Shown: positions 1 to 8,963 of the stretch, in pieces | Numbering within the stretch: the stretch's first letter is position 1 | Layout: every line of letters begins with the position of its first letter | Origin: an uncultured Verrucomicrobiota bacterium | GTDB taxonomy: Bacteria; Verrucomicrobiota; Kiritimatiellia; RFP12; UBA1067 | DNA: 34,960 bases | Direction: 5' to 3' | Assembly (NCBI GenBank): GCA_946623785.1 | Contig: CAMORM010000012.1 | Coordinates: forward strand, 1 to 34,960 | Made by a program: the position numbers and the translations under genes | The notes under the pieces: model-generated | Database searches by the model: none | Told to the model about the DNA's origin: nothing | Seen by the model: the letters and a program-made list of their open reading frames with translations, nothing else

Positions 1-1611
1 CCGCCCTACCAGGCACAATCAGGCCTTCCCGAAGATGAAGTTGTCCGGATCTTGAGGCCTATCGCGGCGGCGCTTGATTACGCTCATTCCAAGGGTGTGG
101 TTCATCGCGACGTCAAGCCGGCCAACATAATGCTGGCGAAGGATGGGACGCCTTTCATATTGGATTTCGGCATATCGCGCGAGATGCAGGAGACCATGAC
201 TCGCGTCACGGGCAAGCTTTCTAGCGGCACGTTGCTCTATATGAGCCCCGAGCAGTTGCATGGTGCGCCACCAAAGAAGGAACAGGACATTTATTCGTTT
301 GCCGCAATGGCTTATGAATGCATGTCGGGGCATCCTCCTTTTTGCCGTGGTCAGATTGAGTTCCAGATCGACAACGACATGCCTGAACCTTTGGTAGGGC
401 GCGATGACCCCATCGCGCCGCAATCGATTGCAAACTCCATCATGTCGGGTCTCGCGAAGCGACCTGAAGACCGCCCAGCGACTTGCTTGGCGGTTCTCGC
501 GGCGCATGACGTTAACCGTGCAGAACCGGTAGGGTCACGCGTCCCGCGTGACCGCAATGGAGTGATGCCCTTGTCGCGTCCGCATGGTTCACATGCGCTC
601 GCCAAATCTTTAGGCATCCTTGCGCTTATAATGGGTGCGTTTGGATTGTGTGCGCTGCTGATGGTAAACAGAACGGGATTCAATTCTGGAAAACGTTCGG
701 GGGCGCAGTATAAGGGTGTGCGGCATGTTCCTTCCAAACCAATAGTGATTGAGGAAGCTGCCCCTGTAGACGGCGAGCCTCGGTGGTTCACTCTTCCTGG
801 CGGCGTTCAAATGGAGATGGTATATGTTGCGCCAGGCTCGTTCAGGATGGGGAGTGACGTAGGAGAACCCGACGAGAAACCCGTCCATGATGTCCGGCTT
901 ACAAAAGGCTATTGGATTGGCAAGTACCCCATTACGCAGGCGCAGTGGAATGCGCTTGTTACTGCGAACGGCGTTTCGTTTGACCGTGGCAAGCCTGTCC
1001 CATACTTCAGCAGCTCGGGTTCTGGGCGGGACATAGTGGCAGGTCTTGACACCTCCGACTTCCCGATGGAACGCATAAGTTGGGAGGATTGCGACACACT
1101 TGTCAAGGCGTTGAACAAAAATGAGAAAGGCGGCAGAACGTGGGATATGCCCACCGAGGCGCAGTGGGAGTTCGCGGCAAGGGGCGGCAACAAGTCGCGC
1201 GGATACAAGTACAGCGGCGGCGACAACATGGATGATGTCGGCTGGTATTACGAGAACTCAGGGACGAAGAGGCTTTCTGATAGTGAATGGGAGTTTGAAG
1301 CCCTTGGGACGAACAAATGCAGAACACATTCCGTACGAGAAAAGGGCGTCGGCAACGAGCTTGGTATCGTAGGCATGAGCGGCAATGTGTGGGAGTGGTG
1401 CCAGGATCTGTATGATGAGAATTATTACTCAAAATGCCCTACGGATGATCCTTGTAATACAGCATCGGGCGGCTACCGTGTCTTGCGCGGCGGCGGCTGG
1501 AACTTCAGCGCGCGGGACTGCCGCTCCGCGCACCGCTACAGGGACATCCCCGGCTACCGCTACGACCTCTACGGCTTCCGCCTCTGCTGCTCCGCAGGAC
1601 CGCGCGAATGA
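1..1611 (+). CDS. Ser/Thr protein kinase fused to FGE-sulfatase (SUMF1-like) domain, 5'-truncated by window edge
   Basis: The reading frame is open from base 1, so the true start and the kinase N-lobe lie outside the window; 536 residues are visible. The kinase C-lobe shows the catalytic loop HRDVKPAN (visible residues 35-42), DFG (55-57) and an SPEQ motif in the APE position (~82-85). A single membrane segment follows at ~201-220. An FGE-sulfatase / C-type-lectin-like domain runs from ~271 to the end, with MVYVAPGSFRMGS, YPITQAQW, PTEAQWEFAARGG, NVWEWCQD and RVLRGGGWN. The kinase is therefore cytoplasmic and the FGE domain most likely outside the membrane. The domain order recalls chlamydial Pkn1-type proteins. 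FGE folds in such fusions usually act as ligand-binding scaffolds, not as formylglycine generators. The C-terminal ~35 residues look hypervariable (see the separate entry). The substrate and ligand are unknown. Confidence 0.9.
   Translation, partial: PPYQAQSGLPEDEVVRILRPIAAALDYAHSKGVVHRDVKPANIMLAKDGTPFILDFGISREMQETMTRVTGKLSSGTLLYMSPEQLHGAPPKKEQDIYSFAAMAYECMSGHPPFCRGQIEFQIDNDMPEPLVGRDDPIAPQSIANSIMSGLAKRPEDRPATCLAVLAAHDVNRAEPVGSRVPRDRNGVMPLSRPHGSHALAKSLGILALIMGAFGLCALLMVNRTGFNSGKRSGAQYKGVRHVPSKPIVIEEAAPVDGEPRWFTLPGGVQMEMVYVAPGSFRMGSDVGEPDEKPVHDVRLTKGYWIGKYPITQAQWNALVTANGVSFDRGKPVPYFSSSGSGRDIVAGLDTSDFPMERISWEDCDTLVKALNKNEKGGRTWDMPTEAQWEFAARGGNKSRGYKYSGGDNMDDVGWYYENSGTKRLSDSEWEFEALGTNKCRTHSVREKGVGNELGIVGMSGNVWEWCQDLYDENYYSKCPTDDPCNTASGGYRVLRGGGWNFSARDCRSAHRYRDIPGYRYDLYGFRLCCSAGPRE
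1471..1605 (+). other. Candidate variable region (VR) of a diversity-generating retroelement
   Basis: At the C-terminal end of the FGE domain the usual Asn-rich stretch (RGGSWNNNARNCRSANRN... GFRL in relatives) is replaced by mixed residues, while the framework W, A-R, C-R-S-A, R, P, R and GFRL is kept. The substituted codons at 1501, 1504, 1507, 1516, 1531, 1537, 1543, 1546, 1555, 1561, 1564, 1567 and 1570 are aac, ttc, agc, gac, cac, tac, gac, atc, tac, tac, gac, ctc and tac. All end in C, as expected if an AAC template was mutated only at its adenines. The gene stops about ten codons after GFRL, the normal place for a VR. No template repeat, Avd or reverse transcriptase is visible in the window. 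Genome-wide preference for C-ending codons weakens the codon argument. Confidence 0.6.
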
Positions 1612-7458: not shown

Positions 7459-7920
7459 ATGACCTCGTTCGGGTTCTTCGCATTCATCGGGTTTGACGCT
7501 GTCGGCCCCGCGGAACTTCTCGTTCTGTTCGCCGTCGTGCTCATCGTGGTTGGGCCGAAGAACCTCCCGGCGGCCGCGCGCAAGATGGGATCCGTCATGG
7601 CTTCCCTAAGGCGCGCGGCCGACGAATTCAAGCGTCAGCTGATGACGATGGACGTGGAGGACCCCAAGCCATCCACCAAGGTCGCCGATCCCGAGCCACC
7701 GCCTCCTCCGCCTCCGGACGCACCGCCTTCCGACACGTATATCGACGTGCCGCCTGCGGAAGGCACGGACTCGCCCGAGGCCTACGCGGACACGGACTCT
7801 TCCGCGGAGCCGTCCGAATCGCCAGTCCCCGACAGCGAGTTCGACCCCCCGCCCGACGTGCAGGCGGTAGATTCGCCCGCCGAGCCGGACGAACCGGCCG
7901 CGGAGGAGGAGAAGAAGTGA
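7459..7920 (+). CDS. tatA: Sec-independent translocase subunit TatA/TatB
   Basis: 153 residues. A short membrane helix (~16-33) reads GPAELLVLFAVVLIVVGPKNLP, with the Gly-Pro hinge at 32-33. An amphipathic helix (~35-62, RKMGSVMASLRRAADEF) follows, as in all TatA/B proteins. The tail (68-153) is unusually long, acidic and proline-rich (runs of Pro at ~75-83, many Asp/Glu). TatA and TatB are not separable by sequence here; a single TatA-type protein beside TatC is common outside proteobacteria. The region before ATG 7459 shows no good ribosome site. The stop overlaps the tatC start as GTGA. Confidence 0.85.
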   Translation: MTSFGFFAFIGFDAVGPAELLVLFAVVLIVVGPKNLPAAARKMGSVMASLRRAADEFKRQLMTMDVEDPKPSTKVADPEPPPPPPPDAPPSDTYIDVPPAEGTDSPEAYADTDSSAEPSESPVPDSEFDPPPDVQAVDSPAEPDEPAAEEEKK

Positions 7921-8963
7921 GCGATCCCGACGAGCGCAACGACCCGCCGCGGCCTTTCATGGAGCACCTCTGCGCGCTGCGCGACAGCGTGCTCGGGATG
8001 GCGGCTTCGTGGGTACTGTGCGTGATAGTCGCGGGCGTGTTCTCGCCGCAGATCAACAAGTGGATATTCGGGCCTGCCGAGACGTGCGCCGGCATTTCGA
8101 TGGCGCGTCCGATCTCCTGCCCTAAGTGCAACCGCCCATATGCGGTGTCGGAAAAGGTCAACTACTGCCTCGACTGCGGGGCTCTCCTCAATCCGGAGGC
8201 GAAGGACAAGCCCGTTCCGCGCAAGGCCACGTGCGCCTACTGCGAGGCGAAGTACGTGGAGCCGGACATCCCGAACTTTTGCGGCGTGTGCGGGCGCGAG
8301 ATACCGCGCGACCCGGGGGCGAAGGGCGCGGAAGCGGGGAATGGCGGCGAAGACGCGAAGCAGGCCCAGCACGAGCCGGTGAGGCATGTGTCCATCGAGG
8401 GCCTCGACCTTACGTCGGGATTCGACGCGATAATCATGATAGCGCTATGGGGCGGCACGGCGCTCTCGTTCCCGTTCCTGATGTTCTACCTCCTCAAGTT
8501 CGTGTTCCCCGCGCTGACGCGCCGCGAGAAGAACTCGATACTCTTCTGCCTCGGCGCGGGCACGGCGTTTTTCGCCGTGGGCGCCTGGATGGCCTACGCG
8601 AAGACGCTCCCCGTGGTGGTGAAGGTGTTCCTGTCGTTCGCCGACTGGGTGAACCTTCCGGTGTACACGGTCAAGGCGGACGGCTACATACGCATAGTCC
8701 TGAAGACGATTCTCGCGTTCGGCATAGCGCTCCAGCTGCCGCTTCTCGTGTTCGTGCTTGGCTGGATCGGGGTGATATCGTCCTCCACGCTCCGCCACTA
8801 CCGCCGGCTCGCGATCGTGGTCATCTTCTTCCTCGGCATGGTGCTGACTCCGCCAGACCCGATGAGCCAGATTCTCATGGCCCTGCCGATGGTGTTCCTC
8901 TACGAACTGTGCATCTGGCTCATCAAGCTCCGCGAGATGGCCACGGGCCGCGGCAGCGCCTGA
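7917..8963 (+). CDS. tatC: TatC with tandem zinc-ribbon insertion in the first periplasmic loop
   Basis: 348 residues, ~90 more than usual. GTG 7917 overlaps the tatA stop. TatC features are HLCALRD (17-23), TM1 (~26-43), a TM2/loop block ending FPALTRREKNS (197-207), and LTPPDPMSQ (310-318). Between TM1 and TM2, where TatC normally has a ~45-residue periplasmic loop, lie two tandem Cx2C-x12-Cx2C motifs (C68, C71, C84, C87 and C106, C109, C122, C125) and a Gly/Ala-rich linker (~131-155). The second Glu of the family's HLxELR motif is Ala 20; the conserved Glu of the cytoplasmic loop (E204) is kept. TatC is the twin-arginine signal-peptide receptor. The insertion is in frame and flanked by normal TatC sequence, so a frameshift artefact is unlikely. 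Confidence 0.92.
   Translation: MSDPDERNDPPRPFMEHLCALRDSVLGMAASWVLCVIVAGVFSPQINKWIFGPAETCAGISMARPISCPKCNRPYAVSEKVNYCLDCGALLNPEAKDKPVPRKATCAYCEAKYVEPDIPNFCGVCGREIPRDPGAKGAEAGNGGEDAKQAQHEPVRHVSIEGLDLTSGFDAIIMIALWGGTALSFPFLMFYLLKFVFPALTRREKNSILFCLGAGTAFFAVGAWMAYAKTLPVVVKVFLSFADWVNLPVYTVKADGYIRIVLKTILAFGIALQLPLLVFVLGWIGVISSSTLRHYRRLAIVVIFFLGMVLTPPDPMSQILMALPMVFLYELCIWLIKLREMATGRGSA

Follow-up and report, generated by a model that had tools for sequence, protein, structure and literature searches.

The question raised by this locus is whether a TatC protein can carry a zinc-binding module on the trans side of the membrane and, if so, what such a module would do for the Tat translocon. The window analysed here, by which we mean the whole stretch of 34,960 nucleotides, stems from a gut Kiritimatiellae genome and contains a tatC gene whose product had been described, in a first-pass annotation, as a regular TatC with zinc-ribbon motifs and a linker placed in frame between TM1 and TM2. 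This description holds, as the open reading frame is intact and its product matches the Pfam TatC profile over the full length. The features that are relevant to the question are the following:

7459-7920, forward strand: tatB-like gene of the TatA/B/E family (153 aa), its C-terminal tail long, acidic and rich in Pro; immediately upstream of tatC, with overlap
7917-8963, forward strand: tatC (348 aa, GTG start), the start of which overlaps the stop of the tatB-like gene
7956-8078, forward strand: N-terminal cytoplasmic motif FMEHLCALR, TM1 (about aa 24-42) and the helix of the first periplasmic loop (P1) up to the conserved Pro53/Ala54, from alignment, hydropathy and AF2 helices
8079-8375, forward strand: P1 insert (aa 55-153, ~99 residues), from alignments, its right edge being alignment-dependent; missing in most sister TatCs
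8109-8198, forward strand: predicted zinc ribbon 1 (aa 65-94; C68, C71, C84, C87), from CxxC-x12-CxxC and a DZR match
8220-8309, forward strand: predicted zinc ribbon 2 (aa 102-131; C106, C109, C122, C125), from CxxC-x12-CxxC and a DZR match
8310-8375, forward strand: Gly/Ala/charged linker (aa 132-153), predicted to be disordered (pLDDT < 50 at aa 134-160)
8388-8960, forward strand: TM2-TM6 core with the C1 loop FVFPALTRREK and the P3 motif TPPDPMSQ, from Pfam TatC, alignment and Foldseek

The frame at 7917-8963 matched Pfam TatC (PF00902) with an E-value of 4.9e-49 and 167 bits (cut-off 25.1), with aa 16-324 covering profile positions 1-208 of 208. With the NCBIfam tatC model (TIGR00945), the score of 129.4 bits fell just short of the cut-off (132.7), and the best-matching stretch was limited to aa 157-329. 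Alignments that included solved TatCs displayed all hallmarks of the family, i.e. EHLxxLR, the conserved P1 proline, PALxxxEK in C1 and TPPD in P3. The AF2 model, built from 17 sequences, reached a pLDDT of mostly 70-95 in the TM region, with helices at aa 14-41 and 43-57, and was matched by Foldseek to solved TatC structures with a probability of 1.00 and E-values down to 1.2e-6. Furthermore, the TatC core was placed inside its own family in the tree, and tatC is single-copy in the genome (assembly of 2.79 Mb in 257 contigs). Judged from its sequence, the tatC product is an intact, functional-looking TatC, predicted to assemble into a (TatBC)3 complex and to support twin-arginine transport, tatB-like and tatA genes being present in the genome. 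Genes for an OmpA-family protein and a NaPi cotransporter are found as neighbours of tatC.

In all solved TatCs, the TM1-TM2 loop lies on the trans side, in line with the established topology of the family. TM1 of the present protein is clear (hydropathy 2.23 at aa 24-42), and since TM1 and TM2 are flanked by cytoplasmic motifs, EHLxALR before TM1 and FPALTRREK of C1 after TM2, the trans-side location of the loop claimed in the first-pass annotation is upheld: by TatC topology, the insert-bearing loop is periplasmic. The insert is confined to this loop and leaves the TM core intact. Its boundaries required correction, from 8095-8385 to about 8079-8375 relative to sister TatCs, as did the assumption that P1 normally comprises ~45 residues. 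Across TatCs this loop ranges from 14 to 248 residues (PMC3712464), and in 107 fetched family loci (some genomes having been fetched twice) the span from VFSPQ to LTSGF measured 26 residues in 64 and 30 residues in 31.

The position of the insert is one at which TatC is known to be permissive. Pro53 aligns with the column of E. coli P48, and the insert begins two residues later; in E. coli, single-residue insertions and deletions in P1 were reported to be tolerated only at K51-T58, just after P48 (PMC3712464), positions that were confirmed by a position check in E. coli TatC. Mutations in P1 abolish transport while the TatBC complex remains intact (PMC3712464). Large natural inserts are also documented. 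The TatC of Nitratifractor salsuginis carries ~100 extra P1 residues in the same alignment column, directly after the conserved proline, in an otherwise regular protein, and cryo-EM revealed this insert to be disordered within a normal (TatBC)3 complex (PMC13323110; PDB 9e02, 9e04, 9e06, 9e07). However, it is unrelated in sequence to the insert described here and contains no cysteine as aligned. A very long P1 of 248 residues is likewise present in the planctomycete Pirellula staleyi (PMC3712464). In the TatC of Myxococcus xanthus, a large periplasmic domain has been inserted that is folded and faces the trans side, this trimeric insert augmenting TatC-TatC contacts (PMC13323110; PDB 9e03), although this domain is located in P2, within a 183-residue loop (PMC3712464), forms a homotrimer and is not reported to contain ribbons. 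According to the first-pass annotation, no TatC of this kind was known to have been described. With respect to the ribbons this stands, as no zinc-ribbon TatC was encountered in the literature search, from which subscription journals were mostly excluded; judging by title, the three papers that mention TatC as well as a zinc ribbon do not deal with Tat. The implied novelty of the site, in contrast, was overstated, given that long P1 inserts are known, including one in a solved complex. Large inserts at this P1 site are thus already known, and it is the ribbon content that is apparently undescribed.

The two ribbon motifs read CPKC-x12-CLDC and CAYC-x12-CGVC, both of them exactly CxxC-x12-CxxC, and their eight cysteines are encoded within nucleotides 8118-8291; a ninth loop cysteine (aa 57) lies outside the motifs. 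Even one such motif appeared in only 8 of 20,000 shuffles of a protein of the same composition. Pfam DZR (PF12773) matched aa 68-126 from end to end of the profile (positions 1-45), with E = 1.7e-4 and 22.1 bits for the whole protein and E = 1e-5 and 26.0 bits for the loop alone. No other Pfam family matches the loop better, yet the score formally stays under the gathering cut-off of 27.3 bits, for which reason we term the insert DZR-like. An NCBIfam search of the loop gave nothing firm, and searching solved structures by sequence produced weak and non-specific matches only (a consensus zinc finger at E = 0.017; ribosomal protein L32 at 0.35). AF2 placed short strands near the cysteine pairs at a pLDDT of about 40-60 in context, and 52 when the insert was modelled alone. 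An internal duplication relating ribbon 1 to ribbon 2 was also considered and found to be weak, since 68 of 2000 shuffles with fixed cysteines scored equally high. The insert is a predicted double zinc ribbon with a flexible linker, present in one genome, and the claim that TatC carries such a module on its trans side is supported by eight cysteines with ribbon spacing and the DZR-like match. DZR proteins share with this insert two CxxC pairs per ribbon and the tandem arrangement of the ribbons; they are usually cytoplasmic, whereas the TatC version sits in the periplasmic loop of a membrane protein.

How widespread this arrangement is was addressed at the level of family, order and phylum. 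The VFSPQ-LTSGF span exceeds 90 residues in only five of the 107 family loci, amounting to 125 residues in the ribbon-bearing TatC, and across the order, in 137 genomes with a TatC, no further long ones were seen by match span. The other four belong to genomes of sister genera, G001 and G002 (loci L031 and L026) and G022 and G023 (loci L048 and L049). They resemble the ribbon-bearing TatC in family, P1 site and span (95-122 versus 125 residues), yet their inserts are unrelated to the ribbons in sequence and devoid of cysteine: those of G001 and G002 are rich in Ala, Glu and Lys and probably helical, and those of G022 and G023 are of low complexity and rich in Ala, Val, Thr and Pro. CxxC is absent from all 106 remaining TatC open frames of the family, and a query combining the insert with TM2 matched TatCs but no ribbons in 388 genomes of the phylum. 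Ribbons were seen in no other TatC of the order (137 genomes) or phylum (388 genomes) sample, and the rarity of the ribbon-bearing TatC is real within the sampled phylum.

A rare insert seen once invites the suspicion that it was produced by an assembly chimera, all the more so in a single draft genome (257 contigs; completeness 78%, contamination 4.6%) and with no second copy of the insert anywhere searched. We regard this as very improbable. Both flanks belong to one in-frame TatC gene, such that two matched junctions would be needed, and the insert occupies a known tolerance site within a TatC whose core groups with its family. Composition is uniform across tatC: the insert has a GC content of 0.67 and a GC3 of 0.85, compared to 0.63 and 0.89 for the rest of the gene, with neighbouring genes also close, so that these host-like values give no hint of a chimera. 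A donor of the ribbons was found neither within the genome (the next best match had E = 0.39, and other DZR profile matches were weak) nor in 115 family genomes, and viral contigs yielded no relative.

The tree bears on a more serious alternative, namely that the insert is a tolerated passenger at a site that accepts almost any sequence, in which case the ribbons may bind zinc while serving no dedicated role. The five TatCs with inserts all belong to a single 23-row clade (support 98/94), 18 rows of which are insert-free; on the tree, their distribution requires three changes, of which well-supported branches force at least two. Three unrelated inserts (ribbons, Ala/Glu/Lys and Ala/Val/Thr/Pro) within one clade indicate a lineage that is prone to acquire inserts at one site, and the disordered P1 insert of N. 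salsuginis fits the same reading. What speaks against it is that all eight ligand cysteines have been kept with exact spacing, in this one genome, despite a host-like GC3, whereas a metal site without use would be expected to decay; this argument would lose force if the insert had been acquired recently from a source of similar GC. We consider a passenger to be a distinct possibility, nearly as likely as the structural or partner-docking role that we tentatively prefer.

The plausibility of metal binding in the periplasm was judged from gene content. Neither DsbA nor VKOR homologues came up in this genome (78% complete), and when 40 relatives were included VKOR was again absent and DsbA was represented by a single match, which was partial and below cut-off. 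Across the genome and these 40 relatives, the family of the host seems to be without the usual disulfide-forming enzymes DsbA and VKOR. Rumen and animal gut are the sample sources of related records. With neither DsbA nor VKOR found and an anaerobic gut bacterium as host, periplasmic cysteines are likely to be reduced and metal binding becomes plausible. On the strength of gene content, the periplasm is plausibly reducing and the loop cysteines reduced and metal-binding, bearing in mind that other thiol oxidants (e.g. DsbB) could exist. In this way, zinc ribbons may be maintained in the periplasm of bacteria lacking DsbA and VKOR, a compartment in which they are seldom expected.

Our preferred reading, to which we assign slightly less than an even chance, is that the ribbons serve on the trans face of the TatBC trimer, either in a structural capacity or as a docking site for a partner. 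TatC would have gained a compact double zinc ribbon and a flexible linker in the indel-tolerant part of P1, just after the conserved proline. The loop would be translocated unfolded during membrane insertion and would then fold by binding two metal ions, Zn2+ being the most likely, in a periplasm where cysteines are not enzymatically oxidised. As the Tat core contains TatBC three times, in a trimer, three inserts, and hence six ribbons, would be displayed on the periplasmic face. There they would most likely strengthen the contacts between TatC subunits or serve to dock a periplasmic partner; the former role is proposed by analogy with the unrelated trimeric P2 insert of M. xanthus TatC. Signal-peptide recognition would not be affected, as it takes place in the cytoplasm. 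The structural or docking role is favoured by the intact core, the single gene copy, the N. salsuginis-like site, the coincidence with the tolerance site, the precedent of the folded M. xanthus insert, eight cysteines with ribbon spacing and the failure to find VKOR or a convincing DsbA; it is weakened by the single sequence, the low pLDDT, the DZR score under the gathering threshold and the disorder of the N. salsuginis insert.

A more ambitious version, in which the Tat translocon is regulated or capped by a periplasmic module that depends on zinc, with six trans-face ribbons that dock a partner or gate transport by metal or redox state, appears unlikely. Marginally less likely still is a pure sensor, in which the CxxC pairs would alternate between a metal-bound and an oxidised form and Tat transport would be gated by the zinc or redox state of the periplasm. 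Zinc ribbons can serve as redox switches in other proteins, the loop holds nine cysteines, and for a cell without DsbA and VKOR oxidation would constitute an abnormal signal. However, nothing in the sequence favours sensing over a structural role or gives a sign of coupling, tatC adjoins no metal or redox genes, and most relatives are without any insert. What the periplasmic loops of TatC do has yet to be settled in the field; if the P1 domain described here is metal-dependent, it could be unfolded reversibly by a chelator and would thus offer a handle on what the trans face does.

The first-pass annotation had further proposed that the loop may bind the long acidic, Pro-rich tail of the neighbouring TatA. 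The two genes are indeed adjacent and overlapping, and the tail is both long and acidic, with a net charge of -20 over 109 residues. The C-terminal tails of TatA and TatB are cytoplasmic by established topology, which places them on the opposite side of the membrane from P1. The insert, moreover, has a net charge of 0, and equally long acidic tails accompany a short P1 in relatives (114 residues and -22 at locus L065; 110 residues and -25 at L009). Nor is the neighbour a canonical TatA: it matches Pfam TatA_B_E (E = 3.3e-8), its best NCBIfam model is tatB (TIGR01410; E = 4.6e-13, 49.5 bits, below the cut-off of 56.5), and a canonical short tatA resides on another contig (C9, locus L119, ORF 1438-1701). 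On the grounds of topology and tail distribution, docking of a TatA tail was rejected, and we attach almost no credence to it. Long acidic tails are common on the tatC-adjacent TatA/B proteins of the family.

In the window as a whole, no RNA families or tRNA were found. A giant protein, likely to be exported, is poor in cysteine (0.67%). The frame at window positions 52-1611 encodes a partial Ser/Thr kinase domain, the N-terminus of which is cut by the contig start, fused to an FGE-sulfatase (formylglycine-generating) domain.
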